A stretch of DNA of 64,000 nt from Methylomarinum vadi (GTDB taxonomy: Bacteria; Pseudomonadota; Gammaproteobacteria; Methylococcales; Methylomonadaceae). Position 1 is the stretch's first letter. Each line of letters opens with the position of its first letter. The notes below the pieces were generated by a model. That model was not told the origin of the DNA. It searched no databases and saw only the letters and a program-made list of their open reading frames with translations. The stretch spans positions 620,001 through 684,000 of the forward strand of contig NZ_JPON01000001.1 of NCBI RefSeq assembly GCF_000733935.1. Reading direction: 5' to 3'. The position numbers were made by a program, and so were the translations under genes. Positions 16,636 through 54,888 of the stretch are shown piece by piece.

Positions 16636-17146
16636 AGGCGGATAGCATGATGACTTTCGAAGAAGACCTGGAAGAATTAGAATCGGCGGAGGATTTTCTG
16701 CAGTATTTTGAACTGGATTACGATCAACGCGTCGTCCATGTCAACCGGCTGCATATCTTGCAACGTTTCCACGATTACATTGCGCAAGCCGGGGAAGAGA
16801 TTCCCGATGATCCCGATATAAAAAAAGCGGTGTATAACGAATAAGGTTAGATTGTAATCGCGGAGCGAGCCACAATCTGAACCGTTTGTTGGACAAGCCC
16901 GGTATTCGGAGGGAGCGTTATATAAGAAAATAGCTTTTCGAAGGATTGGGGGATGTGTTGGCCCATTTCAAGCGTTGACGTCGATAAACGGGCTGAAATG
17001 GGCGTGATGCTGATCATCACACCCGGAATTTCGGATTTTAGCGGCATTTTGCCCTGAATTCAGACCGAACGAAAGCCTCGGTGCTAAAATGCCCGATGAT
17101 CGGTTTGGGTCAGTGAGAAATGCCGCTTACATAACCGGTTTTGCCT

Positions 17147-18244: not shown

Positions 18245-19148
18245 TTGACCGCCCCCCAGTCGATGTCGAAGCCATTCATTAAGGCATTAATCAACTGGCC
18301 GGTATTTTGATTCGTGCCGTCGGTCAGGTGAGTATAGCGGGCAGTGGTGAGGATACTGTGGTGACCGAGGATTTTCTGCACTTCCAGTAGATCGACGCCC
18401 GCTTCAATCAAATGTGTGGCATAGCTATGCCGCAGACAGTGCGGGGTAATCTTTTTTTTAAACCGCAGTCTTGCGCGACTTGGCGCAGAGCCTTTTGCAC
18501 GCCACCGCGATCCAAAGGGCTCTGCGCGCGCTGCGCGCCCTTCAAACCGCCATGGCGATTGGGAAACAACATGACCGGATGCCGGTGAACTTGCCAGAAG
18601 CGGCGTAGCAAATCCAGGGTGGCAGCCGGCAACGGCACCAGTCTATCCTTATTGCCCTTGGCATCTCGGATATGCACGCGTTGGCGACCGGCATCGATAT
18701 CCCCAACCTCAAGACGCAATCCCTCGCCGAGGCGCAAACCTAGACTGTAGAGCGTGAAAAAGAACACCCGGTAACTGAGAATACGCGTGGACTGGAAGAT
18801 ACACCGCGCCTCGTCGACAGTGACGATATCCGGCAAACGTTGCGCCTTCGGCGGCTTGACCAACTGCGGCGCGACCCAAGGCTTGCGCAGTACATGGGTG
18901 TAATAAAACTTGAGACCGTACAGGTCCAACTTGACCGCACTCCAAGAATGCGACTCCAGCAAATCGGTGAAATAATCGGTCAGTTGCTGTTCGGTCAACG
19001 CATTGATGTCTTCGTTGAAATACTGGCCGATACGTCGAATCGCACGGGCATAGGCCTCGATCGTCTTGGGCTGCAACCCTTTAAGTTTGAGGTGTTTCAG
19101 ATGGCTTTGATAGTTTTGCTTGAAATGGGATTCGAATGATGTTGTCAT
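18241..19148 (-). CDS. tyrosine recombinase of the IS91-type element, split over two frames at an A8 run, copy 1
   Basis: The first frame (19148-18408) gives a phage-type integrase N-terminal SAM-like domain and the first catalytic Arg region ([15 protein letters not shown]). It then passes an A8 run (complement of 18452-18459) and reads into noise ([15 protein letters not shown]). In the -1 frame the protein continues without a break as [18 protein letters not shown], then [15 protein letters not shown] with the catalytic His, Arg and Tyr, to a stop overlapping the transposase start. A -1 slip would give a normal 302-aa integrase. Whether this is programmed or a mutation is open, but both copies share it. 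Confidence 0.8.
18452..18459 (-). promoter_or_regulatory. A8 slippery run in integrase gene, copy 1
   Basis: Read on the minus strand as TTA AAA AAA AGA. A -1 slip turns it into AAA AAA AAG ATT and links the N-terminal and catalytic halves of the integrase. The run is the same in copy 2 (30208-30215). Confidence 0.5.
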
Positions 19149-28466: not shown

Positions 28467-28902
28467 AAAGCGAAAAACTTTTTTGCCAATTTGGTTGGAA
28501 TTGCAACGAATCGCTAACGGCCATGAGCGGTTCGATCCGCTGATTATTATCCCGTATCCCTCTTTGTTTCGAGGTTACCGGCCAAAAACATAACGAATAA
28601 GGTTAGATTGTAATCGCGGAGCGAGCCACAATCTGAACCGTTTGTTGGACAAGCCCGGTATTCGGAGGGAGCGTTATATAAGAAAATAGCTTTTCGAAGG
28701 ATTGGGGGATGTGTTGGCCCATTTCAAGCGTTGACGTCGATAAACGGGCTGAAATGGGCGTGATGCTGATCATCACACCCGGAATTTCGGATTTTAGCGG
28801 CATTTTGCCCTGAATTCAGACCGAACGAAAGCCTCGGTGCTAAAATGCCCGATGATCGGTTTGGGTCAGTGAGAAATGCCGCTTACATAACCGGTTTTGC
28901 CT

Positions 28903-30000
28903 CTACGCTTTGGTCGAATTCAATGCCATGACAGCCGAAGAACCGAGAATGCGCGTTTTGATAATCTGCAGGGTTCCACCACAACATGGGCATTGGAGTT
29001 TCGGGCGGGGCCTGAGCCAAGCGATAGCACGATTGGGATTGACGCCGAGCAAGACTTGCAGCAGACGAATCAGCCGTTTGCTGTTGGGGTGCAAAAAGCC
29101 GAAGTTGCGAGTCCGCCTAAAGCCTTTGGGCAGAACATGGCGGAGCATCAGCCACAGAAACTTCACGCCGGGTAGTGTTCGAGTCTGCCACTTTTTGGTT
29201 TTGCTGTCCTGGTAACGGAAGGTTACTTGGCCATCTCGGCAGGCAATAATGTCCTTTTCCTGGATAACGCCCTTATAGAGATAACGTCCCAGATAAACCA
29301 AGGCTTTATCGCCGCGTCCGACCGACTTGACGTCAACGACCCATTGTTGCGGATAGTAGTCAGGCAATGTCAAACCGGCCTGCGAGATCGCTTCAAGCAA
29401 TTTGGCCCGAAACACTTTGGCCACTGCCTTGTGATTGAACAAATAGCCTTTCCGGCCCTTTTTACCCTGTTTGGTGCGCCACAGTCGTTTATCAGGATCG
29501 ATGGCGGCCGCCGGCATCACCAAGTGTACATGCGGATGGTAATCCAATCGGCGGGAATGGGTATGCAACACAGCAATAGCACCGGCATTGCCCTGAAGCT
29601 GTTGATCGTTGCGGGTGAAGGTGTTGACGGTATCCCAACTACAGCGGATCAGCAGATCATACAACGTACGTTGCTGTTGCCAGGCCAACGGCCTGAGTTC
29701 TTTGGGCAAAGTAAACGTCAGCAAAAAATATTCGGCCGGCACCTGCTTCTGCAACTGCCTTTCCAGCCATTGTTGCGATTCGTGCGACTGGCAATGCGGG
29801 CAGCTGCGATGGCCGCAGGAATGCGGCACCAAGCGTTGCCGATCGCAATCATCGCATTGCGCCAACATCACAGGGCCTTGCGACGTGCGGCAGTGTTTCA
29901 TCGCGGCCAGCGCCTGACGCTGACTGGGTGACAAGCGACCCTGGTAAGCGACCAGAAACTCGGCTTCGAAGGTTTGGATGATGGCGGAAAGCAAGATCAT
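28903..30000 (-). CDS. IS91-family transposase, copy 2
   Basis: Identical in translation to the 365-aa transposase at 17147-18244, with the zinc cluster, the HPHVH motif and the tyrosine pair all intact. The absence of amino-acid differences between the copies shows that the duplication is recent. Confidence 0.9.
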
Positions 30001-30904
30001 TTGACCGCCCCCCAGTCGATGTCGAAGCCATTCATTAAGGCATTAATCAACTGGCCGGTATTTTGATTCGTGCCGTCGGTCAGGTGAGTATAGCGGGCAG
30101 TGGTGAGGATACTGTGGTGACCGAGGATTTTCTGCACTTCCAGTAGATCGACGCCCGCTTCAATCAAATGTGTGGCATAGCTATGCCGCAGACAGTGCGG
30201 GGTAATCTTTTTTTTAAACCGCAGTCTTGCGCGACTTGGCGCAGAGCCTTTTGCACGCCACCGCGATCCAAAGGGCTCTGCGCGCGCTGCGCGCCCTTCA
30301 AACCGCCATGGCGATTGGGAAACAACATGACCGGATGCCGGTGAACTTGCCAGAAGCGGCGTAGCAAATCCAGGGTGGCAGCCGGCAACGGCACCAGTCT
30401 ATCCTTATTGCCCTTGGCATCTCGGATATGCACGCGTTGGCGACCGGCATCGATATCCCCAACCTCAAGACGCAATCCCTCGCCGAGGCGCAAACCTAGA
30501 CTGTAGAGCGTGAAAAAGAACACCCGGTAACTGAGAATACGCGTGGACTGGAAGATACACCGCGCCTCGTCGACAGTGACGATATCCGGCAAACGTTGCG
30601 CCTTCGGCGGCTTGACCAACTGCGGCGCGACCCAAGGCTTGCGCAGTACATGGGTGTAATAAAACTTGAGACCGTACAGGTCCAACTTGACCGCACTCCA
30701 AGAATGCGACTCCAGCAAATCGGTGAAATAATCGGTCAGTTGCTGTTCGGTCAACGCATTGATGTCTTCGTTGAAATACTGGCCGATACGTCGAATCGCA
30801 CGGGCATAGGCCTCGATCGTCTTGGGCTGCAACCCTTTAAGTTTGAGGTGTTTCAGATGGCTTTGATAGTTTTGCTTGAAATGGGATTCGAATGATGTTG
30901 TCAT
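29997..30904 (-). CDS. tyrosine recombinase of the IS91-type element, split at an A8 run, copy 2
   Basis: Same arrangement as copy 1: an N-terminal frame from 30904, an A8 run (complement of 30208-30215), then the catalytic HSYATHL and LTTARYTHL region in the -1 frame, ending at a stop that overlaps the transposase ATG. Recurrence in both copies means that the shift predates their separation. Confidence 0.8.
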
Positions 30905-31332: not shown

Positions 31333-32112
31333 ATGAAACAAATGAGTAAACAAAACCTGCTCGGCAGCGGAAGAAAACACAATCATCTTGAATTGCTGGA
31401 ACGCATCGATGCCAGCGGTTCCATCAGCGCTGCCGCCAATGCCTTAGGCATGAGTTACAAGGCGGCCTGGGATGCCGTCGAAAACATCAACAACCTGTCC
31501 GCGCAGCCGCTGGTAGAGCGCCGAGTGGGTGGTCGCAACGGCGGCGGCGCGGTATTGACGACACACGGCAGGCGCCTGGTGGCCGCTTACCGCAGACTGG
31601 ACAAAGAGAGAGAACGTGTTCTGGCCCATCTCAACCAGGTCGTGGACGACTTCGACACCTATTACGAAATCATTAGGAGATTTGACATGAAGACTAGCGC
31701 GCGCAATCAATTCTTAGGAAAGGTCGTCAGGATCAAAGAAGGAGCGGTTAACGCCGAAGTCGTCCTGGATATCGGCGGCGGCGATGAATTGGTCGCCGGC
31801 ATCACGCTGGACAGCCTAAACCACTTGAAGCTTGTCGAAGGCACGGAGACTTACGCCTTGGTCAAGGCACAATGGATCATCCTCTGCACCGACAATGACC
31901 TAAAAACCAGCGCCCGTAATCGCTTGTGTGGCACCGTTGCCCGCTGCCAGGAAGGCGCGGTCAATTCGGAAATTATCCTGGAACTTCCGGGCGGCAAGCA
32001 CTTGACCGCCATTGTCACTAATGACAGCTACCATGATCTCGGTCTCAAGCCGGGCATGCGCGCTTGCGCCTTGATCAAGGCCTCTCATGTCATTCTGGCC
32101 GTATCATCCTAA
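31333..32112 (+). CDS. modE: molybdate-dependent transcriptional regulator ModE
   Basis: A 259-aa regulator with a winged helix-turn-helix N-terminal domain (LLERIDASGSISAAANALGMSYKAAWDAV) and two Mop/TOBE repeats (about 122-190 and 194-259), each with the pattern SARNxxxGxVxxxxEGAVNxEVxLxxxGGxxLxAxIT that binds molybdate. GGGAG precedes the start. It heads the mod operon and has its own binding site upstream, so autoregulation is likely. Confidence 0.94.
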   Translation: MKQMSKQNLLGSGRKHNHLELLERIDASGSISAAANALGMSYKAAWDAVENINNLSAQPLVERRVGGRNGGGAVLTTHGRRLVAAYRRLDKERERVLAHLNQVVDDFDTYYEIIRRFDMKTSARNQFLGKVVRIKEGAVNAEVVLDIGGGDELVAGITLDSLNHLKLVEGTETYALVKAQWIILCTDNDLKTSARNRLCGTVARCQEGAVNSEIILELPGGKHLTAIVTNDSYHDLGLKPGMRACALIKASHVILAVSS

Positions 32113-32141
32113 CCGTTTTATTCATTAGTAAAAGGAAATAA

Positions 32142-32906
<765 letters not shown>

Positions 32907-32915
32907 GACATAGCG

Positions 32916-33596
32916 ATGCTCACCGAAGCGAATCTCACCGCCATCCTGCTGACGCTGAAGCTGGCCACGATCGTTACGATTTTATTGCTGTTGATCGGCA
33001 CGCCGATCGCCTGGTGGCTGGCTCGAACCCGGTCGCGGCTGAAGGCCCCTATCGCGGCATTGGTGGCATTGCCCATCGTGCTGCCGCCGTCGGTACTCGG
33101 TTTTTATTTGTTGCTGGCCATGGGGCCTAACGGGCCGGCCGGACAATTCACCCAGGCATTGGGATTGGGTACGCTGCCGTTTACTTTTCCCGGTCTGGTC
33201 GTGGCATCGGTATTTTATTCGCTGCCCTTCGTCGTGCAACCGATCCAAAATGCCTTCGAAGCGATCGGCGAAGGCCCCTTGGAAACGGCCGCGACACTCC
33301 GCTCCAGCCCCTGGGACTGTTTTTTTAGCGTCGCAATTCCCCTGGCCTGGCCGGGATTCTTGACCGCCATGGTATTGGGGTTTGCCCATACGGTCGGCGA
33401 ATTCGGCGTCGTCTTGATGATCGGCGGCAATATTCCCGGCGTCACCCGCGTGATCTCGGTGCAAATATACGATTATGTCGAGGCGCTGGAATATGGCTCT
33501 GCCCATGAACTGGCGGCAGTGATGCTGGCGTTCTCCTTCCTGGTGTTGTTGGCGTTGTACACCTTGAATCCGGGCAAGGTAAAGACCGGAACATAA
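32916..33596 (+). CDS. modB: molybdate ABC transporter permease ModB
   Basis: Inner-membrane channel of the molybdate importer: 226 aa, about five transmembrane helices, with the EAA-type cytoplasmic loop [33 protein letters not shown] that contacts ModC. It starts nine bases after modA. Confidence 0.94.
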
Positions 33597-33661
33597 AAAA
33601 TCAAACAGCCTGAGATAGTTCGGCGATCAGGCATCTCGCTGCAAAGTAAAGAAGGATTGAT

Positions 33662-35054
33662 ATGAAACAGATAATACGTCTATTAGCTGTACTGGCATTA
33701 TTGCTCAACGCAAACTTATCAAGAGCCGGAGAGACTTCCGCTGCTCCATGGAATGTCCATAATGCCGCCGGACTTCCCGATTGGTTGACGTTTTCGGTGC
33801 AACAGCGCACTCGCTACGAAACCCTGAGTAATACCTTCAATAAAAACGGTAATGGCGGCGACCAGGTCATCGCCTTCAGAACCAATGTTTTCGCCGAAGC
33901 CGCCTATGAACAGTTCCGCCTAGGCGCCGAATTCATCGATTCACGCTTGGAGCTGGAAGACGAGGGAACGCCGATCAACACGACCCACGTCAATGAAACG
34001 GAGTTGCTGCAAGCTTATTTAGCCTGGCAAAGCGATAATTTTCTCGACTCTGGCCTGAATGCAGAAATCAAGTTCGGCCGCCAAACGATGGATGTCGGCA
34101 GCCGCAGGCTGGTGGCGAGAAACCGTTTCCGCAACACCATCAATAGTTTCAACGGTATCCACTTCGAGTTGAAAAACGCCCATTGGCAATGGCGCAATTT
34201 CGCGGTACTGCCTATCTCTCGCCTGCCAAACGATGCGGATTCGCTACGCCGTGGCGTCGTCGAATTCGACGAAGAGAATTTCAAGGTACTGTTCGCCGGC
34301 TCTTTTCTCAGCGTCAGCCAGCTGCCTTTCGACAGCACGGGCGAACTGTATTTCTTTCAATTGAGCGAGGAAGACACCGCCACTACCGCTAGCAAAAACC
34401 GCAACTTGTCCACGCCGGGTATGCGATGGGTTCGCGCTCCGCAAAAGAATCGCCTGGATTTCGAACTGGAAGCGGCATTGCAAACCGGCACCTCGCATGC
34501 CAGCAAGGATGCCACTGACACCACCAAACTCGACCATTTCGCCTATTTCGGCCATGTCGCTTTTGGTTATACCTTCGATCTGCCCTGGTCGCCCCGCCTG
34601 CTGCTGCAATACGATTACGCCAGCGGCGACAAGGACCCTAACGACGGCAAAAACGGCCGTTTCGAAACCCTTTATGGCGCAAGACGCTTCGAATTCGGGC
34701 CGACCGGTATTGGGCGCCTTTGCCCGGGTCAACATTCAATCTCCTGGCATCCGCCTGCAGTTCAAACCGCGCTCGAATGTCAGCGGTTTCATCGCTCATC
34801 GCGCCCACTGGCTAGCGCAAAAACGCGATGCCTGGGCGAATACGAAATTGCGCGACACCACAGGCCAATCGGGCAGTTACATAGGCCAATTGCTCGAAGC
34901 CAGACTCAGATGGGAGGCCGTTCCCAAGTTGGTTAAACTGGAAACCGGCTGGGCCCATTTGTTCAAGGGCGACTTTGCCAAGAACGCGCCTGGCGCGCCC
35001 GAGGATAAAGAGGACGCGGATTATTTCTATGCCCAATCCACATTGACGTTTTAA
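33662..35054 (+). pseudogene. alginate-export-family outer-membrane porin, frameshifted
   Basis: The first frame (from 33662) has a signal peptide (about 1-22) and beta-barrel strands typical of the Alginate_exp family (QQRTRYETLSNTF, LLQAYLAWQ, EIKFGRQTMDVGSRRLVARNRFRNT). After RFEFGPTGI, near 34710, homologous sequence continues in another frame as GAFARVNIQSPGIRLQFKPRSNVSGFIAHRAHW to a barrel-like end (YFYAQSTLTF) at 35054. A net +1 (or -2) change at this point truncates the barrel. Placement between modB and modC suggests an outer-membrane channel for molybdate uptake, which is an inference. Confidence 0.75.
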
Positions 35055-35109
35055 TTTAGGTTGATTGAAATAACAAATTGACCAACGAAAAGATAAACAC
35101 GCAGCTTCG

Positions 35110-36237
35110 ATGAAAACGACACTTTTCACTAACGGTATCCATGAAACGCCAACCTTGACTGACGGAGATGCGATCGAGGCCCGTTTCAAACTCGATTATG
35201 CGGAGTTTTCGCTGGATGTCGATCTTTGTCTTCCCGGCCGGGGCGTCACCGCGCTGTTCGGCCATTCGGGGTCCGGCAAGACGACTCTGCTGCGCTGCAT
35301 CGCCGGACTCGAACGGCCCATGGGCCGGCTCTCGGTCAACGGCGCAGTCTGGCAAGACGACAAACTGTTTCTGCCGACCTACCGGCGCCCGCTAGGCTAT
35401 GTGTTCCAGGAAGCCAATCTGTTTCCGCACCTGAGCGTCCGCGGTAATTTGACCTATGGACTGAAACGAACGCGCTTCAAGGACAGTAAGGTTCTCCTAG
35501 ATCAGGCGATAGACTTGCTGGCTATCGGCCATTTGCTGGAACGCAAAACCACGCGGCTTTCCGGTGGCGAGCGCCAACGCGTCGCCATTGCCCGTGCCCT
35601 GGCGGTCAACCCGAAAGTATTATTGATGGATGAGCCCCTGGCGGCGCTTGACCAGGCGCGCAAACGGGAAATCCTGCCGTTCCTGGAGACATTGCACGAC
35701 GAATTGGAAATCCCGCTTCTTTACGTGACCCATTCCAGCGACGAAGTGGCACGGCTGGCCGATCACTTGGTCATCCTGTCGCAGGGCAAGGCGGTCGCTA
35801 GCGGTCCCTTGACGGAAACTCTTGCCCGCCTGGACTTGCCGGTCCGACCCGATGAGGAAGCGGCGGTCGTCTTGAAGGCGCGGATTATAGAACAGGATCT
35901 GGATTGGCATCTGGCTCGCGCCGAGTTCGCCGGCGGCAGCGTCTGGGTGAGAGATTTGGATTTCAACTTAGGTGAAGCGGTCCGTTTGCAGATTTTGGCG
36001 CGGGACGTCAGTTTGACCAAAGAACTCCCTGCCGTATCCAACAGTATATTGAATCGATTGTCGGCTGTGATCCAGGATATCGGCGCCGGGGAACACCCAG
36101 CCATCAAAATAGTGCTATTGCAGGTGGGAGACTCTCCCCTGCTATGCCGTTTGACCAGCCGTTCCGCCCAAATGCTGGCAATAAAACCCGGACAAAAGGT
36201 ATGGGCCCAAATCAAGTCTGCGGCGATTATCGAATAA
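35110..36237 (+). CDS. modC: molybdate ABC transporter ATPase ModC
   Basis: Energises ModB. The protein has Walker A GHSGSGKTT near residue 52, the Q-loop region, signature LSGGERQRVAIARAL, Walker B VLLMDEPLAALD and a C-terminal TOBE/Mop domain (about 310-372) that binds molybdate in the ModC family. 375 aa. An N-terminal extension of about 25 residues precedes the ATPase fold; the start may lie slightly downstream. Confidence 0.94.
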   Translation: MKTTLFTNGIHETPTLTDGDAIEARFKLDYAEFSLDVDLCLPGRGVTALFGHSGSGKTTLLRCIAGLERPMGRLSVNGAVWQDDKLFLPTYRRPLGYVFQEANLFPHLSVRGNLTYGLKRTRFKDSKVLLDQAIDLLAIGHLLERKTTRLSGGERQRVAIARALAVNPKVLLMDEPLAALDQARKREILPFLETLHDELEIPLLYVTHSSDEVARLADHLVILSQGKAVASGPLTETLARLDLPVRPDEEAAVVLKARIIEQDLDWHLARAEFAGGSVWVRDLDFNLGEAVRLQILARDVSLTKELPAVSNSILNRLSAVIQDIGAGEHPAIKIVLLQVGDSPLLCRLTSRSAQMLAIKPGQKVWAQIKSAAIIE

Positions 36238-39062: not shown

Positions 39063-39654
39063 ACTAAACAACCACCCGCTCAAGCGGGTGGGTTCCAATA
39101 ACGGACTGAAAGTCCGGATACGCGTCGACTAAACGACGCGTCTTAGTCGGGCTCCATCTTGAAATTATCGTTTGGATTAGGTTCAAAGTGATGCTCCAAA
39201 TATTGCTTTATCATCTCATCAGTCATTTGCCCCACTGTGGCGCAAAAATAACCGCGGGCCCAAAAATGTCGACCCCAATATCGCTTTTTCAAGTGCGGGA
39301 ACTCTTCGAACAGATAGCTCGAAGTTCGTCCCTTGATTCGCCTCATGATTTCGCTTGGGGCCATAGTCGGCGGCGCACTCACCAAAATGTGCACATGATC
39401 TTTGCTCACGACACCTTTGATAATCCGTATCTCAAAGGCTTCGCATGTCTGCCGCACCAAGTCTCTCACTCGTTCGGCTATTTCATCCTTCAGCACTTTA
39501 TAACGATACTTCGTAACCCAAACAAAATGATACTCAATTTGGTAAACCGTATGGCTGCCGTATCTATAGTCCATCGCCACCTCCTTGGGCAAATTATCGC
39601 AGCTAAAGCTGACCGGCTAAAGCCGGTGGTTTAAACCTTATGATGGATAATTAA
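39063..39654 (-). mobile_element. IS200-type element, copy 1
   Basis: 592 bases, matching 47981-48572 with an offset of 8918. The left side carries hairpins CCACCCGCT/AGCGGGTGG, CGGACT/AGTCCG and ACGCGTCG/CGACGCGT; the right side carries ACCGGCT/AGCCGGT. These are the subterminal structures used by Y1 transposases. No target duplication, as usual for this family. Confidence 0.85.
39143..39574 (-). CDS. tnpA: IS200-type Y1 transposase TnpA, intact copy
   Basis: Single-strand transposase of 143 aa from the ATG at 39574, preceded by AAGGAGGTGGCG. The HUH motif is in KDHVHILVSAPP and the nucleophilic tyrosine in MIKQYLEHHF. The alternative TTG at 39592 is less likely. This is the intact member of the pair and could act in trans on the copy in nifN. 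Confidence 0.9.
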   Translation of the reverse strand: MDYRYGSHTVYQIEYHFVWVTKYRYKVLKDEIAERVRDLVRQTCEAFEIRIIKGVVSKDHVHILVSAPPTMAPSEIMRRIKGRTSSYLFEEFPHLKKRYWGRHFWARGYFCATVGQMTDEMIKQYLEHHFEPNPNDNFKMEPD

Positions 39655-43600: not shown

Positions 43601-44566
43601 TTATTGCCGCCGGGCATCCCATAGCGTTTTATAGGCGCTGTCCAGCCGGGACAGGCGGGTGTTAGCGTCATGAAGGTCGGCGTATTGAGGAAAACGGCTG
43701 GAATTTCCCTTGAGGTACCATTGCTCCATCGTTTGCGTTAGCCTTTCCTTGTTGTCATAGGTTTCTGCGATGCTTTTCTTGAGCCAGGCCAGACTGTTTT
43801 CCTCACCGAGGGCCACGACTTTGTAACGCACGCCTGTCTCGAAAATACGCACGCCGCCGCCCTCGGCCGCAGTCCGAAACAGCGCGTCGGCATCGACAAC
43901 CTCAGCACCCGCCAGATAATCGATACCGAAATGATACATTTCCGGCATCCAGGGAACGGACGGCCCCATCAATACCGTTTTTGCCCCGGACGATAATTCG
44001 GCCAAGCGAGGAAAGGTCTTGTTGGGGATAGAGCTGGCCGATATAAACACCCAATCGGCTTCCGGCAGCAAATACTCGCAAGCCGGGTCGGGATAATCGC
44101 CAGGCTGCGGCGCCCGTTCCAACACTCGCCAACCGTATTGTTCGACATACTGTTCGATACCGGGGTAATGGCCGACCACGACCACTTTTTTATCCCGCAG
44201 CCGGGGCAGGAAATGCTCGAATACCGTTAAATTAGCGGCGCCAGGCTTAACCTCCAGCAATTCGCCGTCTGGTATCGGGCCGGCATTGATGCTGCAGTTG
44301 ACGGCAGCCATGCCGACCGTGGCCTGGTAGGGTTCCCATTCCATGATCCATTTGCCGACCTCCTTCAGCGCTTTACCGGTCAAGGTGCCCGGCCATCGCA
44401 AGGTGCGCGTCGGCATAAACGGCGTCATGGCGAGCCCCGAATTCAACGTTTGATAGGGTTGGCTTTGGCAAACTGTCCAGACTAATCCGATGCTCAGACG
44501 GGCGATGGTCTGCGTGCTGCTGCAATAATCCAACAGACATTCATAAAGGCGCTTAGGATCGTCCAT
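43601..44566 (-). CDS. DUF364-family protein, possible metal-chelate handling
   Basis: A 321-aa protein with the DUF4213/DUF364 signature: LNSGLAMTP, a Rossmann-like KKVVVVGHYPGIEQYVEQ segment, EADWVFISASSIPNKTFPRLAELSSGAKTVLMGPSVPWMPEMYHFGIDYLAG. The family has been proposed to bind metal chelates, and members occur in nif regions of diverse bacteria. A role in iron or molybdenum handling for nitrogenase is plausible but unproven. The start overlaps the stop of the preceding gene by one base. Confidence 0.75.
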   Translation of the reverse strand: MDDPKRLYECLLDYCSSTQTIARLSIGLVWTVCQSQPYQTLNSGLAMTPFMPTRTLRWPGTLTGKALKEVGKWIMEWEPYQATVGMAAVNCSINAGPIPDGELLEVKPGAANLTVFEHFLPRLRDKKVVVVGHYPGIEQYVEQYGWRVLERAPQPGDYPDPACEYLLPEADWVFISASSIPNKTFPRLAELSSGAKTVLMGPSVPWMPEMYHFGIDYLAGAEVVDADALFRTAAEGGGVRIFETGVRYKVVALGEENSLAWLKKSIAETYDNKERLTQTMEQWYLKGNSSRFPQYADLHDANTRLSRLDSAYKTLWDARRQ

Positions 44567-45789: not shown

Positions 45790-46107
45790 TTATGCAGCCT
45801 GTTTATGTTCGTGGGTAAAACAATTTTTCGGACAAACCTTGGAACAAGCCTCGCAACCGATGCAATCGTTTCGATTTTTCAGGCTCATGACCATGCTGTT
45901 ATCGTCCTCGTCCTCGAAATCGCCGTAATCGTCGTCGAAGTTCTCGGGATCGAGCACCGAGTCCTTTTCCACCAGATCGAAGACATCGCGCGGACAAACC
46001 TTGAAACAACGTCCGCAGCCGATGCACGTGACTTGATTCAAATCCGCGACATAGGATGGCGTCCATTCGCTACCGCCGAAAGTCACACCCGTTACCAGTT
46101 CAGTCAT
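45790..46107 (-). CDS. fdxB: nif-specific ferredoxin III (FdxB)
   Basis: A 105-aa ferredoxin with two 4Fe-4S motifs: [16 protein letters not shown] and [16 protein letters not shown], separated by an acidic spacer (about residues 45-65) typical of the nif-specific family. The Met at 46107 ([12 protein letters not shown]) fits the family start. Probably an electron carrier in FeMo-cofactor synthesis or to nitrogenase. Confidence 0.93.
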
Positions 46108-46117
46108 ATCTACACTC

Positions 46118-46333
46118 CTATGCGGTTTCCGCCTGGGCGGCCTGCAAAGCCTTGTTGGCATCATCCCAGGCCTTGCAAGCCTCGAAAGTTTCTTCGGCGA
46201 CGGCCATCAAATCCAGATAACCGGCGGGGAGCTTATCCTCGACCAGATCGTGCAGCTCCATCGCTTTCTCGCCGGCCAGACGCTTGTTTTTTTTCACAGT
46301 TTTTTCCAGTTTTTTCAGTTCTTCGGGACTCAT
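46118..46333 (-). CDS. CCE_0567-family nif-associated metalloprotein
   Basis: A 71-aa helical-hairpin protein: [39 protein letters not shown], then [17 protein letters not shown]. This small family is nearly always found between nifX-associated DUF269 genes and ferredoxins in nif clusters, and a cyanobacterial member was solved as a metal-binding protein. The ATG at 46333 has AGGAAGG at a good distance. Confidence 0.85.
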
Positions 46334-46388
46334 GATAGACACCTTCCTATTTCATTCGTCGTACGCGCTATCGCTCGGTACGCACCAA

Positions 46389-46865
46389 TCAATCTCTGGC
46401 CGCTTCGTTATATTTCTCGATCAGGCCTTTCGCCTTGGCGATCATCTGACCGCTTTGTTCGCACATTTTTTCCAGGCTGGGAAAACCGAAGCGGTGAATA
46501 TCGCGCAACGTCTTATCGACGACGATCAGTTTGCCGACCAATACGAACGCCCGGCCGAAACCTTCATGGGTGATATTGATGACCGGCACCGCCATCAATC
46601 CGGTTTCGTTTTCTATCGTCGAAGCAATGGCGTTGTAATAGGCCTTGACTCGTGCCAGCGTGATTTCGTCGGGATCGCCGATGACCGGAATCTCTTTCTT
46701 ACCCTCCTTGGTCAGTACCAAAGGATCGATGATTTTCTCCTTAGACCACCCCTCGTAGGTATCGTAGGTATCCAAGGCCCTCAATTGCTTGACCATTTCG
46801 TTGACGAAGTCGTTTTCCAGATACGGGTCGCTTTCCGCGACCACTAATTCGGCTGCACTGCTCAC
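46389..46865 (-). CDS. NifX-associated protein (DUF269)
   Basis: 158 aa with the DUF269 patterns LVVAESDPYLENDFVNEMVKQLRALDTYDTYEGWS and INITHEGFGRAFVLVGKLIVVDKTLRDIHRFGFPS. GTG start with AGGAG six bases upstream. Always linked to nifENX in nitrogen fixers; its biochemical role is not settled. Confidence 0.92.
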   Translation of the reverse strand: MSSAAELVVAESDPYLENDFVNEMVKQLRALDTYDTYEGWSKEKIIDPLVLTKEGKKEIPVIGDPDEITLARVKAYYNAIASTIENETGLMAVPVINITHEGFGRAFVLVGKLIVVDKTLRDIHRFGFPSLEKMCEQSGQMIAKAKGLIEKYNEAARD

Positions 46866-46958
46866 ATGATTCTCCTGTTAGTTTTTAACTGATAATGTCG
46901 GGATACGGCTATCGCCAAACCCCGGCCTACACTGATTCGATTTAAACCCATCACGCCA

Positions 46959-47444
46959 TCATTCCTGCCAATCCTCGTCGGCCATTTCGTCGTAATGTTT
47001 GTCGTCGCCGCCGCCTTGCTGCTTGATCGCCCGCGCTAGCCAACTGGATGGACCGGACCGCAATTCCTGTTGCAGATCCTCGACCAATTTCTGGATCGGA
47101 CTGCCCTCCTGGACCTTGACCGGCTGTATACCCAATGCCACCAATTGCTTAACCGCCGATGCGCCGACCGCCTGGCAATACACGGCAACGCAATCCTTCA
47201 GTAGATCGAATTTGACCGCCAGCTTGTCTTCGTTGCCATCCTGAACCTGTTGGCCGAACTCGGCCGCCTCGACGAACTGTGTCTGCTCCGGATTGACCGC
47301 GTAATTGGCGAAGGATTTGGCCGAACCGAAATGCTGGTTGACATGTTTCATGTCGGTGGTCGCGAAAGCGATTCTTAATGATGTGTCCATAAGCGCCTGC
47401 TGTTGTTCGCACTGCACGACGTGCATGCGTCGGGTTAATGACAT
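46959..47444 (-). CDS. nifX: FeMo-cofactor carrier NifX
   Basis: A 161-aa protein with the dinitrogenase iron-molybdenum cofactor domain: LRIAFATTDMKHVNQHFGSAKSFANYAV and CVAVYCQAVGASAVKQLVALGIQPVKVQEG. NifX binds NifB-cofactor and VK-cluster and shuttles them to and from NifEN. The ATG at 47444 overlaps the end of nifN by ten bases. The IS200 insertion in nifN may reduce its expression by polarity. Confidence 0.92.
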   Translation of the reverse strand: MSLTRRMHVVQCEQQQALMDTSLRIAFATTDMKHVNQHFGSAKSFANYAVNPEQTQFVEAAEFGQQVQDGNEDKLAVKFDLLKDCVAVYCQAVGASAVKQLVALGIQPVKVQEGSPIQKLVEDLQQELRSGPSSWLARAIKQQGGGDDKHYDEMADEDWQE

Positions 47445-47980
47445 GACGGTTTCACTTCGTCGGCCGGTTTTTGCGCATAAACCGAGTGGAATACCGGGAT
47501 CTCTTCGTGCGCGAAATTGATCACCAGATTGGCCAGGTCGAACAAGGCCTGGCGCGAGCCGCGATAACCGACCCAGGTTTTCTGATAACCGCCGATAATG
47601 TCGTATTGCGGGAAACCGGCCCGCAATATCGGCACGTTCAAGCGCTCGGCCGTGTCGGTCGCGTGCGAGTTGCCGATCAATAATTGCGCCCCGTTATCCC
47701 GGGCGATGATTTCCAAGTCTTCCAGATCGCCGATCTTGACCTGCGCAAGTGGCATCGCCGCCAAACAGGCCGCAGAACTGGGCGCCACTGCGGCGACCAC
47801 TTCTGCCCCCATTTCACTCAGTAGATGGGCAAAGGCGTTGAGCTGGTCGGGATCGGACGCGACCGCAACCCGCAGTTGGCCGAGCATGAAGTGGGTATCG
47901 AGCATCGCATCCTGCAATTGCATGCGCTGGCGTTCGATCTTGGCCGGTACTTCCTGCCCGCTGATCTCGTGCAAGGCTGA

Positions 47981-48572
47981 ACTAAACAACCACCCGCTCA
48001 AGCGGGTGGGTTCCAATAACGGACTGAAAGTCCGGATACGCGTCGACTAAACGACGCGTCTTAGTCGGGCTCCATCTTGAAATTATCGTTTGGATTAGGT
48101 TCAAAGTGATGCTCCAAATATTGCTTTATCATCTCATCAGTCATTTGCCCCACTGTGGCGCAAAAATAACCGCGGGCTCAAAAATGTCGACCCCAATATC
48201 GCTTTTTCAAGTGCGGGAACTCTTCGAACAGATAGCTCGAAGTTCGTCCCTTGATTCGCCTCATGATTTCGCTTGGGGCCATAGTCGGCGGCGCACTCAC
48301 CAAAATGTGCACATGATCTTTGCTCACGACACCTTTGATAATCCGTATCTCAAAGGCTTCGCATGTCTGCCGCACCAAGTCTCTCACTCGTTCGGCTATT
48401 TCATCCTTCAGCACTTTATAACGATACTTCGTAACCCAAACAAAATGATACTCAATTTGGTAAACCGTATGGCTGCCGTATCTATAGTCCATCGCCACCT
48501 CCTTGGGCAAATTATCGCAGCTAAAGCTGACCGGCTAAAGCCGGTGGTTTAAACCTTATGATGGATAATTAA
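47981..48572 (-). mobile_element. IS200-type element, copy 2, inside nifN
   Basis: The same 592 bases as 39063-39654, same orientation as nifN. The only difference I noticed between the copies is at 48178 (T, versus C at 39260), which creates a stop codon in tnpA. The subterminal hairpins are intact, so it could still be moved in trans. Confidence 0.88.
48061..48492 (-). pseudogene. tnpA: IS200-type TnpA with nonsense mutation
   Basis: Identical to the intact TnpA at 39143-39574 except that the Trp codon after GRHF has become TGA. The protein would stop before the catalytic tyrosine in MIKQYLEHH, so this copy cannot transpose by itself. Confidence 0.88.
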
Positions 48573-49410
48573 TGCGTCGTTGGCCGATAAACCGTAGAGG
48601 TGGTCGAAACTGTAGCTGGGCACGCCGGTTTTTTCCGCCAGCCATTCACCGGCCTTGGCCATCGAGGGTCCGATCACCAGAGTCGCGTTGGCATCGCCCA
48701 GCGTCGCCATTTCCGAGATCGGCGTGCCGCCGATCGTGACCGGCGAAAATTCCTCTTCGGTCAACGAACCGTCCAGCGAATTGGCGATATCGGGTACGAA
48801 AACGGGCCGCAAAGCGAAGGCCTCGATGATATCGGTCAGCGCCTCGATATCTCCAGGCGTCAGCATGGCGCTACACAATACGTTGACCTGGCGCTTGCGC
48901 TTGCCGGGCTGCGTGCCGGCTTGTTCGGCCTTCGGCACCAGCGCCTTGATGATTTCGGCCACGGTCAAGGCATAACCGCTTTCGACGCAGCCGTTAAAAT
49001 CCGGAGTATTGACCGCGACCACCGCGACATCTTTATATTCCGGATATTTTTCGCGGAATTCGCGGACGTTGCGCTGCACGTCGGCGCCCTGGGTTTCCGC
49101 CAGTCCGGTCGTCAGCACGGTGATCAGCGCCGGTTTGCTTTTTTCGGCGATGTTCTTGATGCCTTCGACGACGTTCTCGTCGGCCCCCATTACCGAGCTG
49201 CCCTGGTCCATCGCCGTCGTTTGCAAGGGAATCGGCTCGCGGAAATGGCGCACGAAAAACACCTTGGCGAAGGCTGTGCAGCCCTGGGAACCATGCAGCA
49301 TGGGCATGGCGCGGTTGAAGCCCAAGGTCGCCAACGAACCGCCGACCGGCTGGCTGGCTTTCAACGGATTGACCGACAAGGCCTTTTTGCGTTTGATGAT
49401 GTCGGCCATG

Positions 49411-50802
49411 TCACGCCACCTTTTGGGTTTTCCACGGTGCCGGCGCACGTACCGCCGGCCAAACCGGGCTTTCGATCGTCAACGCGAGTTGCCGAACCAA
49501 TTCCAGCATGCCCTGGTAACCGGCGTAACCGAATTCGCGTTCCTGGTTGATATCGAGGAACGGAATCTTGGCCTTCAAGGCCGTGTACATATTGCGGCCG
49601 CCGGCGATCAGAATGTCGGCCTTATAGTCGCGCACCACTTTCAACAAGGCTTTAGGGCTGCCGTCTTCGATCATCAGCGCATCCTCGCCCATCAGTTCGC
49701 GAATACGGGCCTTATCTTCCTCGGTCGACTTCTTGGTGCCGGTCGCGACTACGACCATACCCAGATCGTGCAGGGCCGAGATCACCGACCAACTTTTCAC
49801 GCCGCCGGTAAACAACAGCACCCGCTTGCCGTTCAGCCGTTCCTTCCATGGCTCCAGCAAATTCTTGATACGGGCCTCTTCGCGGGCGATCAACGCCTCG
49901 GTCCGGGCCGTCAAATCGCCGTCTCCGATCAAGCGGGCGAAATCGCGCAAGGCCTGGCTGGTGTCGGTGATGCCGTAGAAACTGCCTTCGAACCACGGCG
50001 TGCCGTAGGATTGTTGCAGCTTGCGGGCGACGTTGACCATCGCCTTGGAGCACACCATCATGTTGACCTCGGCCTTGTGCATCGTCTGCACCTCGCGGAA
50101 ACGGGCGTCGCCCGACAACGTGCACAGCACCCGTAAACCCAATTCGTCCAGCAACGGCAGCACATGCCAGAATTCGCCGGCGATGTTATATTCGCCGACC
50201 AGATTGACATCATGAACCTTGATATTCTCACGGCTTGAAGTCGCCGGCAGCGGATCGGGATCGCGGGTGCCGATCACGTATTTGACCATCGCGTCGCCGG
50301 CGATCCGGTTGCCCAGGTTCTTGGTGCCGTAAAAACCGGCGCAATCGATCGGTACCACCGGCACGCCCCATTTCTGTTCGGCGGTCTTGCACACCGCGCT
50401 GATGTCGTCGCCGACCAACGCCGGGACGCAGGTGTTATAGATAAACACCGCAGGCGGTTGGTAAGTCTCGATCGCCTGCTTGATCGAGTGCAGCAAACGT
50501 TTGTCGCTGCGTCCCATGATCACGTCCTGTTCGGTCAAATCGGTGGTCATGCCGATCCGGTACAATTGGGAGCCTGACGAACGCGTGCCGCGATTGTCCC
50601 AGGAACAGCCGGCGCAGGCGATCGGTCCGTGCACGATATGAGCAACGTCGGCAATCGGCAATAACGCGATCTGGGCGCCGTCAAAGGCGCAACCGCCTGC
50701 GGCGGAGCCGGGCTTCGGCTTCGCGCAACCGGATTTTTCCTTCTTGTTATGCTCGCAGGCCGGTTCGTCCAGCAATTCGGCAATGTCTTTGTTCGATTTC
50801 AT
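49411..50802 (-). CDS. nifE: FeMo-cofactor scaffold subunit NifE
   Basis: Alpha-like subunit of the NifEN scaffold. 463 aa with the cluster-ligand regions [50 protein letters not shown] and [16 protein letters not shown], and the ending [16 protein letters not shown] typical of NifE. The start lies 33 bases after a perfect -24/-12 promoter, so the 5' leader is short. First gene of the operon. Confidence 0.96.
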
Positions 50803-50834
50803 GGCGCAACATCCGATAGTTTTACTGGCTTTAC

Positions 50835-50850
50835 AGCAACTGTTGTGCCA
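50835..50850 (-). promoter_or_regulatory. sigma-54 (-24/-12) promoter of nifE
   Basis: Read on minus: TGGCACAACAGTTGCT, which matches the consensus TGGCAC-N5-TTGCT at all fixed positions. It lies about 33 bases upstream of the nifE ATG. Confidence 0.9.
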
Positions 50851-50894
50851 TACACTAATTGTTTGATTTATTTGAACTATAACTAAAATTGTTT

Positions 50895-50910
50895 TGTAGC
50901 ATTTGCTACA
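50895..50910 (-). promoter_or_regulatory. NifA upstream activator site of nifE
   Basis: TGTAGCATTTGCTACA, a TGT-N10-ACA site that is also a near-perfect palindrome. It lies about 45 bases upstream of the -24 element, closer than the other two nif units. The divergent gene at 51038 shares this intergenic region, but I find no -24/-12 promoter facing it. Confidence 0.85.
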
Positions 50911-51037
50911 AAATTCGTATTCCTGATACGGGGAACGACAATTTCCGGACCATTATGACGGTCAGAATTATGAGGACGCCGAACGACAAAAGCCTTATTA
51001 TCTCGGTTAGGCTGATTCACTTGCTGTCAGCCGTCTT

Positions 51038-51568
51038 ATGTCCGATACGCAAGAGCAACGATCGATGAACCCGAGAATGCTGGAAAAAATAAAATTAGAG
51101 CACGAGGCGGCCCGTCTGTTCATGCGGCTCTACGAGCAGAATTTCGGGATTAAAATGCGGCATATTTGGCATAACGAACCGAAAAAACCGGATGTCTCCT
51201 GCTATCTCGACGGGGAACGCCTTGACCTTGAAATTGCCCATCTCTACGGTAGCGAAGAAGAAGCGCAATTGATCCTCGGCCGCGAAATCACGCTCCGCAC
51301 TCTGGACGCGCTCCACCGTTTGATCAATGTGCCTATCGACCATCGCCTGTTGAACGCGCTGAATGCCATCCTGGCCAGTAAGGCCGAAAAGTCCTACCAC
51401 AGCGACCGGGTTTGGCTGGTATTGCGCAACGCCAACCCGCTGTGGAGCCGGCATGACCTGGAAGCCAATCTTCATCAGGTGACGTTACCGGAACGGCATC
51501 CGTTCGAACAGATTTGGGTGGTCGGCGATATGAAAGGCGTATCAGGTATATTGCGGCTTTTTCCTTGA
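51038..51568 (+). CDS. protein of unknown function next to nifE (176 aa)
   Basis: A soluble protein, divergent from nifE. It contains NFGIKMRHIWHNEPKKPDVSCYLDGERLDLEIAHLYG, whose PD-x-DLEIA pattern recalls PD-(D/E)xK nuclease-like folds, though no clear catalytic Lys is seen. Starts are possible at 51038 or 51065 (MNPRMLEK). The family is not recognised and the nuclease resemblance is weak. Confidence 0.55.
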   Translation: MSDTQEQRSMNPRMLEKIKLEHEAARLFMRLYEQNFGIKMRHIWHNEPKKPDVSCYLDGERLDLEIAHLYGSEEEAQLILGREITLRTLDALHRLINVPIDHRLLNALNAILASKAEKSYHSDRVWLVLRNANPLWSRHDLEANLHQVTLPERHPFEQIWVVGDMKGVSGILRLFP

Positions 51569-51571
51569 ACA

Positions 51572-51882
51572 TGAGTGGCGATTATGCCATCTTCAACCAT
51601 GGAACTCCGGCCAATCTTAGGGAGGATGCTCGCAGAGTGGTCCGCCAATCAATGTTCATATTTTCTATTGGATGTCAATTTCCCTTAGTGGCTTGCATTT
51701 CATTCGTCGGAACCAAATTAGGTTCCAACCCAGGCAGGCTAAAATGGTCCCAGGCCCGTCTTATTATCCAGTACGCGGAAGTTCTCCAAAGCGAAGTAAA
51801 ATCACCATTCCTTATATCAAATTTTTATTTTATGTAGCATAATTCCTATCAGACTGGATTTAAGCTTTTTGCAACCTACTTA
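51572..51882. other. degenerate stretch left of the IS
   Basis: A frame begins MSGDYAIFNHGTPANLREDARRVVRQ at about 51571 and soon loses coding character before the IS starts at about 51883. It may be a fragment of a disrupted gene, but I cannot link it securely to the gene remnant on the other side of the IS. Confidence 0.35.
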
Positions 51883-53616
51883 GAGTCTACTCAGAAAATA
51901 TAACCTACTGATTATAAATATTTATTAGGTGATATTTGCTATAATTAATGCACAAAAAACATGCCTTTGACTTCAAAAACCGTGCAGAGATGATTCGAAC
52001 CACCAGCGCAAAACAACTGACGATAGCCGAATTCGACTGGCCCTTTGAGACGGCCCTGGATAAGAATAATCGCTGGGTCAAGCTCAGTGACTGCATTCCG
52101 TGGGACGAACTGGCGGAGAGCTATTATCAAGGCCTGCCGACTGATAGAGGCCGTCCGTTGAAAGACGCGCGCCTGGTGATCGGCGCCGTGATCATCAAAC
52201 ACAAGCTATGCCTGTCTGACGTAGAAACCGTGCTGCAGATCCAAGAAAACCCGTACCTGCAATACTTCGTAGGCCTGCCGGGTTATCAGGCAACGGCACC
52301 GTTTCCCCCGTCGTTATTGGTCGAAATCCGCAAACGCATGGGCGAGGCGGTGTTCGAAGGCTTTCATCGGGCCATTATCGAGGCGCATGAAGGCAAAAAG
52401 CCGGTCAAGCCTGAACCGCAAGCACCGCTTGATGCGGCCCTGGGTTCCAAGTCTGACACCGGCCCAACCGAAGAAAAGCCCAGTGCTTCCGCGGATGCCG
52501 CCTCTGAGCAAACTGGGCCAGAAGGCATGGCGCCTGCGCATCGCGGCCAATTGATTTTAGATGCCACCGTGGTCGAACAAGCCATCCGTTTTCCCACTGA
52601 CTTGAGTTTGCTGAACGAAGCGCGTGAATTCAGTGAACAAATCATCGACACCCTGTGTGTCCACCTGAAGGTTGGCACTAAACCCAGAACCTATCGCCGG
52701 AAAGCCCGCGCCGCGTATCTGGCCATCGCCAAACAAAAGCGTCCTGGCCGGAAAACGTTGCGCCGGGGCATCAAGCAACAATTACAGTATCTGCGCCGCA
52801 ATCTGGGCCATATCGAGCAACTCTTAGCGCCGATTCCGGAGGGCCAGCCGCTGCCGCTACCCGGCTGGCTGCTTCATCGTTACTGGGTGATCCAGCACGT
52901 GTACCAGCAGCAATGGGAGATGTATCAAACCCAGACACGCCGCTGTGACCATCGCATCGTCAGCATCAGTCAGCCCTATGTGCGGCCCATGGTGCGCGGC
53001 AAACAAGACCAGCCGGTCGAGTTTGGTGCCAAGCTCAGCGTCAGTTTAACCGGCGAGGGCTTGGCCCATGTCGACCGCCTGCGTTGGGATGCCTTTCATG
53101 AAGGCTTAGACCTGGCAGCACAGGTTGAGGCCTACCGCGAGCGATTCGGCCACTATCCGGAACGGGTGATCGCCGACCCCATCTATGGCACGCGCGCCAA
53201 CCGCGACTACTTGAAACAACGCAGCATCCACTTTGCCGGCAAGCCGCTCGGCCGCCCCAAACAAGTCACCGACGCCAATCGCGAACAACTCAAGCAAGCC
53301 AAGGCCCAACGCAGACAAGACTATTTGCAACGCATCCCCATCAAGGGCAAATTCGGCCAGGGCAAGAATGGTTACCGGCTCAATTATATCCGGGCCAAGC
53401 GTGCCAACACCTCATTCGCCTGGATCAACACCATCTTCCTGGTCATGAACCTGTTGATCCTGGAAAGGATCTTTTTTGGCCTTAGTCAATGCGGCCTTGC
53501 TAGTTTGATGAGGGCAGTTGCACAGGTCTGGGAACAAAGGGTTTTAACTCAGCGCGCTCAGCTCCACTTAGCCGTCCGGCTTGTACATAACTATGGCTGA
53601 TTTACTGAGTAAACTC
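51883..53616 (+). mobile_element. insertion sequence with IS5-superfamily-like transposase
   Basis: Inverted ends: GAGTCTACTCAGAAAAT on the left (from 51883) and the complement of the right end, GAGTTTACTCAGTAAAT (ending at 53616), with two differences in 17. About 1.73 kb. No clear target duplication. It truncates the gene to its right. Confidence 0.78.
51948..53600 (+). CDS. DDE transposase (IS5-superfamily-like)
   Basis: A 550-aa protein. The N-terminal region WVKLSDCIPWDELAESYYQGLPTDRGRPLKDARLVIGAVIIKHK resembles IS5/IS1182-type DUF772 domains; the core includes GQLILDATVVEQAIRFPTDLSLLNEARE and RVIADPIYGTRANRDYLKQR; the C-terminal KFGQGKNGYRLNYIRAK carries the last acidic region. A Pro/Ser/Ala-rich insert lies around residues 145-195. 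Intact; the exact IS family name is uncertain. Confidence 0.8.
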   Translation: MHKKHAFDFKNRAEMIRTTSAKQLTIAEFDWPFETALDKNNRWVKLSDCIPWDELAESYYQGLPTDRGRPLKDARLVIGAVIIKHKLCLSDVETVLQIQENPYLQYFVGLPGYQATAPFPPSLLVEIRKRMGEAVFEGFHRAIIEAHEGKKPVKPEPQAPLDAALGSKSDTGPTEEKPSASADAASEQTGPEGMAPAHRGQLILDATVVEQAIRFPTDLSLLNEAREFSEQIIDTLCVHLKVGTKPRTYRRKARAAYLAIAKQKRPGRKTLRRGIKQQLQYLRRNLGHIEQLLAPIPEGQPLPLPGWLLHRYWVIQHVYQQQWEMYQTQTRRCDHRIVSISQPYVRPMVRGKQDQPVEFGAKLSVSLTGEGLAHVDRLRWDAFHEGLDLAAQVEAYRERFGHYPERVIADPIYGTRANRDYLKQRSIHFAGKPLGRPKQVTDANREQLKQAKAQRRQDYLQRIPIKGKFGQGKNGYRLNYIRAKRANTSFAWINTIFLVMNLLILERIFFGLSQCGLASLMRAVAQVWEQRVLTQRAQLHLAVRLVHNYG

Positions 53617-54163
53617 CAATTATGTCGTCGACATCAACCGCGATACGCAGTTGCAGCTAAGTTACGCCGACGAAGAACATACCCTGATTTGCGGTATCGC
53701 CCGCATCAGCGCCAGCGAGTTTCGTTTCCGCCTGTATCAATTCGACGGCAAGGAATATTTCGAAATTATCCAGGAACAAGTCGATCCATTACTTCCTATC
53801 CTGTTCAAACCGATGGGAACGCCGCTGCCCGAAGCGAATTTCATCGCTTCAGACGCCGATTACGTCGATTACATCACCGAGTTGATGGGCGGTTTCGCGA
53901 TTCCCTCCTTTTTAAAGGAATACCGCAAAGACAAGCAATACTTATTACTCGGCATGCCCTTGAACCGCGACTCCGAACGCATGGTCATGAGCGATATCAT
54001 CTTCGGCGCCAAGGAAGATCCCAAAGGCTGGGTGTTGAACAAGAAACCGACCGCCAAGGAGCAACGTTTCTGTAACCGATTGGGACTGGAAATCATCGAT
54101 ATGGATGTCGAAGAATTTCTGGATGCCGTCGGCTTCAAGCGCGAGCTGCAACAAAGCGCGTGA
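53617..54163 (+). pseudogene. SIR2-like-domain protein, 5' end lost to an IS
   Basis: From the IS edge the frame reads NYVVDINRDTQLQLSYADEEHTLICGIARIS, continuing through the Met at 53651 to 54163. The C-terminal part FLKEYRKDKQYLLLGMPLNRDSERMVMSDIIFG resembles the end of SIR2-like domains in which the last strand is (F)LFLGxxLxDxxxR. The N-terminal half is missing. The coding frame runs past the ATG at 53651 up to the IS, showing that this start is not original. Family assignment is tentative. Confidence 0.55.
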
Positions 54164-54339
54164 AACCCAGAGAGATTGGAAAGCCGGCCATTCAATTCAT
54201 AACCTCACAGCCTATAAAGGGGGACGAATAACGGGCCAACAGAAAAGTATCTTTGCTGATCGACGACTTTGCCAATGCCAGGCAATGAATTAGATTAAGA
54301 TAGTTACCCATTGTGAAAATCGCAAAACCGGGAGCTATC

Positions 54340-54888
54340 ATGGGAAATCAGCAACAGACTTTGGCCGAATTTATCAAGGCAGTGGCTTTCGCCGCCGAAA
54401 AACACCGCCATCAAAGACGCAAGGATGCCGCCGCTTCGCCCTATATCAACCATCCGATAGGACTGGCCAATGTCCTGTGCCACGAAGCGGGCATCACGGA
54501 CGTCGACGTGCTATGCGCCGCCGTTCTGCACGACACGATCGAGGATACCGAAACGACGGCGGCCGAATTGGAAGCGGAATTTGGCCCACGAATCGCTGCG
54601 GTGGTTCTGGAAGTCACCGACGACACATCACTGAAAAGAGCCGAACGCAAGCAACGCCAAATCGAGCACGCCCCACATATTTCTTACGAAGCCAAACTGG
54701 TCAAACTGGCCGATAAAATTTGCAATTTGCGTGACGTTCTCGATTCACCGCCTGCCGGTTGGCCGGTTGAGCGCAAGCGTGAATATTTCGATTGGGCCAA
54801 GAATGTGATCGATGGGTTGCGTGGCACGCATTCAGGCTTGGAAGCCATTTTCGATGCGTTATATGCCCGGCAACCTGACCTCGATTGA
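54340..54888 (+). CDS. HD-domain protein of the MESH1/SpoT-hydrolase type
   Basis: A 182-aa protein resembling stand-alone (p)ppGpp hydrolases: AFAAEKHRHQRRKDAAASPYINHPIGLANVL, CAAVLHDTIEDTETTAAELEAEFG (the HD metal site), VTDDTSLKRAERKQRQIEHA and AKLVKLADKICNLRDV. MESH1-type enzymes hydrolyse ppGpp, and human MESH1 also acts on NADPH. GGGAG precedes the ATG at 54340; an in-frame GTG lies at 54313. Activity inferred from the motifs. Confidence 0.88.
   Translation: MGNQQQTLAEFIKAVAFAAEKHRHQRRKDAAASPYINHPIGLANVLCHEAGITDVDVLCAAVLHDTIEDTETTAAELEAEFGPRIAAVVLEVTDDTSLKRAERKQRQIEHAPHISYEAKLVKLADKICNLRDVLDSPPAGWPVERKREYFDWAKNVIDGLRGTHSGLEAIFDALYARQPDLD

Follow-up and report, generated by a model that had tools for sequence, protein, structure and literature searches.

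A recently multiplied IS200/IS605-type element with a truncated transposase splits nifN in a Methylomarinum vadi genome assembly that lacks nifHDK

Introduction

Lineages that once fixed nitrogen have lost the trait through deletion and insertion sequences, and heterocystous cyanobacteria have programmed excision elements in nif genes, such as the nifD element. Among insertion sequences, IS608 from Helicobacter pylori and ISDra2 from Deinococcus radiodurans encode a Y1 HUH transposase, have hairpins near both ends, and insert 3' of a short target. In the passages of the literature that deal with it, this target is TTAC for IS608 and TTGAT for ISDra2, and it is kept at the left flank (PMC5934647, PMC2806898).

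We analyzed a stretch of 64,000 nucleotides from the genome of the gammaproteobacterial methanotroph Methylomarinum vadi, referred to as the window, in which nifN is interrupted by a mobile element. As in the nif losses of former diazotrophs, the state is patchy among close relatives and the leftover genes are useless alone. Unlike those losses generally, this one has been caught part-way, with nifHDK gone, nifN split, and nifE, nifX, nifB and nifA still open. The locus also resembles the cyanobacterial nifD element, in that a mobile element sits within a nif gene whose reading frame would be restored by removing it exactly. However, the element here is an ordinary insertion sequence present in 43 copies, its own transposase is truncated, and the nitrogenase genes are missing. 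We consider it very likely that a recently multiplied, stop-bearing insertion sequence in nifN and the loss of nifHDK together make the nif genes the leftover of a lost trait, nifN being one casualty and not the sole reason. The split of nifN is part of ordinary gene loss, and the locus captures trait loss at an intermediate stage, nitrogenase-type genes being kept by some genomes of the genus and absent from others.

An IS200/IS605-type element interrupts nifN

The nifN gene (47435-49409, minus strand) is interrupted by an IS200/IS605-type element, a second copy of which lies in the window:

48567..49409, minus strand: 5' part of nifN, 279 codons plus the TTAATT target, matching TIGR01285 positions 1-278 (E 2e-113); junction taken from the comparison with 79 relatives.
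47981..48566, minus strand: element in nifN, 586 bases, lying 3' of TTAATT at 48567-48572; part of a shared 592-base block, with 43 copies in the genome and a tandem step of 586 bases.
47435..47980, minus strand: 3' part of nifN, 182 codons including the stop, matching TIGR01285 positions 276-430 (E 1e-59).
39063..39648, minus strand: the other copy of the element in the window; its tnpA is open over 149 codons (39143-39592).

NifN is a scaffold subunit for the FeMo-cofactor. Against the NifN equivalog model TIGR01285, the 5' part alone scores 379.6 bits (cut-off 326.8), and the 3' part scores 202.6 bits, in register with the 5' part. An earlier note on this DNA had proposed that an IS200-type element splits nifN into parts of 279 and 182 codons, and both proposals hold, given the Y1 transposase family matches described below and the consecutive placement of the two parts on the model. 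The element's length, put at 592 bases in that note, needed correction. Two 592-base blocks (39063-39654 and 47981-48572) do indeed differ at a single base (39260 vs. 48178) and have unlike flanks, but six of these bases, TTAATT, belong to the target.

This boundary follows from the other copies of the element. The organism's own genome (one contig of 4,335,162 bases) contains 43 full-length copies, including the two in the window, and one piece of 63 bases. The left flank reads TTAATT in 39 of the 43 and ATAATT in one, while in the remaining three, the second units of tandem dimers, it is the end of another element; the dimers repeat with a step of 586 bases. From the 39 flanks and the dimer step, we take the element to be 586 bases long and TTAATT to be a retained target, with the ends ambiguous by one base (a shared T). 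Since the 43 copies occupy separate genome sites and fall into just two alleles over 586 bases, the presence of this block in nifN is not due to chance.

When the 586 bases were removed in a script, a NifN of 462 residues was obtained, and the 18 columns around the junction aligned gap-free with 79 of 79 relatives (80 loci were compared, with L030 excluded for an internal stop). Removing 592 bases also keeps nifN in frame, but the product lacks two residues found in all 79. Thus, the earlier statement that removal restores the frame exactly is right as to the frame and a normal NifN, with the boundary shifted by six bases. Both the flanks (39/43) and the empty nifN site, in register with 79/79 relatives, point to an element that inserted 3' of a short fixed target and did not duplicate it.

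The same two observations bear on whether the insertion is an artefact of assembly. Multi-copy repeats are typical sites of misassembly, and one of 43 near-identical copies might have been misplaced in nifN. We judge this extremely improbable, as the nifN copy has the left flank seen in 39/43 copies and the empty site is in register with every relative compared. In addition, the published genome of M. vadi IT-4 was assembled from PacBio and Illumina data into 1 contig of 4.33 Mb (PMC4722281), which also argues against an artefact if, as we infer, the genome studied here is that of IT-4. A mixture of occupied and empty nifN sites may exist, which would count against our preferred explanation. 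Splicing of the insert by a structured RNA or intron was rejected, as no Rfam family reached threshold in 46000-54500.

The tnpA product of the intact copy scores 157.7 bits with PF01797 and 167.3 bits with NF033573 (cut-off 55), and its HVH motif and Tyr131 align with those of solved transposases, ISHp608 among them. Hairpins are found close to both element ends, with DNA fold z scores of -2.48 and -7.03 relative to shuffled sequences, consistent with subterminal imperfect palindromes. The Y1 HUH transposase, the hairpins near both ends, and the placement 3' of a short target, which stays at the left flank, are all shared with IS608 and ISDra2. In contrast, the target here is TTAAT(T), compared with the TTAC or TTGAT given in the passages on those elements; tnpA is the sole gene within the 586 bases, and a stop codon is found in 28 of the 43 copies. 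The nearest relative among the matches listed is 92% identical and comes from another genus of the same family. No match was obtained at E 1e-20 in five other genomes of the genus, with at most three candidates scored per genome.

The three head-to-tail dimers are located at 159365, 1086207 and 1092589 of the own contig, and one of them joins the two alleles described below. Their end-to-start junctions are suggestive of transposition through a single-strand circle. At 1012373-1013021 of the own contig, an element copy seems to have inserted at an ATAATT inside a fragment of a further copy. The copies are unevenly distributed: 41/43 lie between 97 kb and 1.77 Mb, all in the first 1.8 Mb of a contig that measures 4.34 Mb, with runs of one orientation.

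A truncated tnpA allele outnumbers its intact parent

The single base that distinguishes the two copies in the window falls within the transposase gene:

48178..48492, minus strand: tnpA of the nifN copy, with TGA at codon 111, matching positions 1-96 of the 121 in the Y1_Tnp profile.

Codon 111 is here counted from an upstream TTG at 48510, while the ATG at 48492 is the start that aligns with solved transposases. The difference at 48178 changes this codon from TGG to TGA, and the TnpA of the nifN copy ends ahead of the catalytic tyrosine, which corresponds to Tyr131. We take Tyr131 to be the equivalent of Tyr127 in IS608, the counterpart in ISDra2 presumably being Tyr132. A passage on IS608 describes its Tyr127 as the catalytic residue and places it on the last helix (PMC5934647).

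Across the genome, 28 of the 43 copies carry TGA and 15 carry TGG, and they are otherwise identical over 586 bases. The 28 TGA copies have 27 distinct 12-base left flanks, and every one of them begins below 1.32 Mb on the own contig. Codon 111 could be compared in 23 related stretches, which came from 22 of the 24 loci in other genomes; because it reads TGG in 22 of these and GGG in one, TGA is the derived allele. The occurrence of a derived, truncated allele in 28/43 copies suggests that the dead element was probably moved in trans, with the 15 TGG copies as the presumed source of transposase.

A stronger proposal is that the TGA form had a one-off origin, is immobile alone, and as a successful parasite of its intact parent reached 28 of the 43 copies, including the one in nifN. 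On present evidence we would give this even chances. If true, a one-base mutation would have been the origin of a trans-mobilized element. The truncated HUH protein would then perhaps even modulate the intact transposase, in which two subunits share the active site. The TGA in tnpA may be read through. As it stands, a truncated insertion sequence allele is commoner in this genome than the intact parent.

The genes for nitrogenase itself are missing

On either side of the split nifN are two open nif genes:

49411..50802, minus strand: nifE, uninterrupted and without stops; TIGR01283 706.1 bits (cut-off 505.1).
46959..47444, minus strand: nifX, uninterrupted; TIGR02663 117.9 bits (cut-off 112).

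Two further genes, nifB (647.1 bits) and nifA (651.1 bits), are adjacent and free of stops, ~127 kb away. A search of the single-contig own genome with PF00148, to which NifD, NifK, NifE and NifN belong, returned nifE and the two nifN pieces only, and hence no nifD or nifK. A search of the same genome with the NifH family profile PF00142 returned six matches, the best at 37.5 bits, and no nifH; for comparison, the NifH of a relative scores 434.7 bits with this profile. A functional Mo nitrogenase calls for nifH, nifD and nifK together with nifE, nifN and nifB, and here nifHDK are absent from the assembly and nifN is split. Subunits of the V and Fe-only nitrogenases also belong to PF00148. As nifE and the two nifN pieces are the only PF00148 matches in the genome, rescue by an alternative nitrogenase or by a second nifN was rejected; the NifN model, run on the own genome, likewise found just the two pieces.

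These results change the reading of the locus. The earlier note had regarded most other nif genes as intact and the loss of nifN as the probable reason for an inability to fix nitrogen, subject to rescue by a second nifN or by precise excision, and had proposed a genome search for a second nifN. That search yielded nothing beyond the two pieces, and the rest of the argument gives way with the absence of nifH, nifD and nifK and with the probable deletion scar upstream of nifE described below. In principle, precise excision by a copy with an intact transposase could restore nifN alone. It should not restore nitrogen fixation, since the genes for the enzyme and its reductase are missing from the assembly, and the strain is presumably unable to fix nitrogen. 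Could the nif system nevertheless be complete apart from nifN, with one new insertion silencing it and precise excision able to revive it? The uninterrupted nifE, nifX, nifB and nifA would fit, as would the normal NifN obtained on removal of 586 bases. But with nifD, nifK and nifH absent from the genome and a probable deletion scar near nifE, we find this very unlikely. A location of nifHDK on a replicon missing from the assembly could be raised against our preferred explanation, a lost trait. The conspicuous broken nifN thus does not explain why nitrogen fixation stopped, and a plausible inference is corrected: the enzyme's own genes are missing.

A probable deletion scar upstream of nifE

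Another insertion sequence, separate from the element in nifN, starts about 1.1 kb upstream of nifE and abuts a gene fragment:

51881..53616, plus strand: DDE-transposase insertion sequence (DDE_Tnp_1_2, DUF772), with three further copies in the genome.
53617..54163, plus strand: 3' remnant of a SIR2-like gene, 76% identical to the L138 homologue over its residues 136-304.

Homology to the SIR2-like gene begins right at the right end of the insertion sequence (53616/53617). The remnant is 76% and 70% identical to homologues from two genomes of the same genus, although its SIR2_2 Pfam match is below the cut-off. In 9 of 10 relatives examined, both same-genus genomes included, a near full-length SIR2-like gene stands divergent beside nifH. 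In L136, 2.5 kb and another reading frame lie between the two genes, and in L173 the SIR2-like gene was not found within the 10 kb taken. The nifH-neighbor gene is thus cut at the right end of the insertion sequence, an end that reads ACTCTA in the three other copies and ACTCCA here, running into the gene. Searching the own genome did not recover the first ~125 codons; the sole SIR2-like match there (own contig 673591-674160) covers residues 117-304, contains one TGA, and has its first residues inside the insertion sequence end. Given this single match, we rejected the possibility that the N-terminal half was relocated rather than deleted.

Judged from the sequence, the junction probably marks a scar left when nifHDK were deleted. 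The simplest account is that a deletion adjacent to the insertion sequence removed nifHDK, which would formerly have been at this place, along with the start of the SIR2-like gene. In eight named relatives, nifDK and nifEN are separated by distances of about 7 kb to megabases, so a rearrangement besides the deletion may be needed to bring nifE and the SIR2-like remnant so close.

Our preferred explanation for the whole locus runs as follows. A recently multiplied IS200/IS605-type element with a truncated tnpA inserted 3' of TTAATT in nifN, most likely using the transposase of one of the 15 stop-free copies. The genome also lacks nifHDK, most likely through a deletion bounded by the separate DDE insertion sequence, and the remaining nif genes are remnants of the lost trait.

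Distribution of nitrogenase-type genes among relatives

Each of the eight named methanotroph genomes has four whole-profile PF00148 matches. In the family as a whole (n=179 genomes at least 90% complete, own genome included), 113 have a PF00148 match. Counted by eye, 26 relatives have such a match and an assembly of 10 contigs or fewer, and all of them have four matches; the eight named genomes appear to be included among these 26. One to three matches were seen in 12 relatives, all of them assemblies of at least 80 contigs. By the same count by eye of the family list, our genome is the only few-contig one whose set is partial. Within the genus, PF00148 genes are present in two of the five other genomes (four and five matches) and absent from three.

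Two Methylobacter genomes have been credited with a full set of nitrogen-fixation genes, while IT-4 has not (PMC4722281). Two further papers gave no match to nifH (PMC4950536, PMC10538026), and the second gave none to nitrogenase either (PMC10538026). Literature searches on disruption of nifN by insertion sequences, on nif in Methylomarinum or methanotrophs, and on nif loss gave no title on the present case among the matches listed.

Decay of the remaining nif proteins and the order of events

We compared the remaining proteins with those of relatives at near-invariant alignment columns. NifN is changed at 2 of 237 such columns, where relatives have a median of 1 and up to 7. NifE (3/312) and NifX (4/60) are at the high end, the relatives' median being 0 in both cases. 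The NifX-associated protein (1/54) and the protein of 43601-44566 (0/75) were likewise set against medians of 0. For NifE, NifX and these two proteins, the sets were made up of the rows that were free of stops and covered to 85% or more (71, 79, 76 and 43 sequences, respectively, own included). As a clock, these changes give no clear signal, with NifE and NifX high and NifN similar to many relatives. As NifE and NifX exceed the median relative, decay may have begun earlier than one would conclude from NifN by itself.

The 2/237 columns in NifN and the two alleles among 43 element copies support the earlier view that the insertion is recent. The accompanying claim of a fresh loss fits the insertion; for the trait it depends on the order of the insertion and the loss of nifHDK. 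A finer version of our preferred explanation would have the insertion in nifN come first, removing selection on the system, with the deletion of nifHDK following later. This order fits all the data, and the protein changes do not reveal which event preceded the other. However, an earlier deletion fits equally well, and the absence of PF00148 genes from 3/5 other genus genomes suggests that selection may have been lax beforehand. We put the insertion-first order at slightly below even.

Two other features of the window may be mentioned. The Mo nitrogenase genes are missing, yet 31333-36237 holds genes for regulating and taking up molybdate: a modE-like gene alongside modA, modB and modC. Two direct repeats, at 16834-19148 and 28590-30904, have at least 300 identical bases in common; each is followed by open reading frames of 365 and 246 amino acids, the latter a tyrosine recombinase, and the repeats flank nifM, clpX, flavodoxin and clpP genes.
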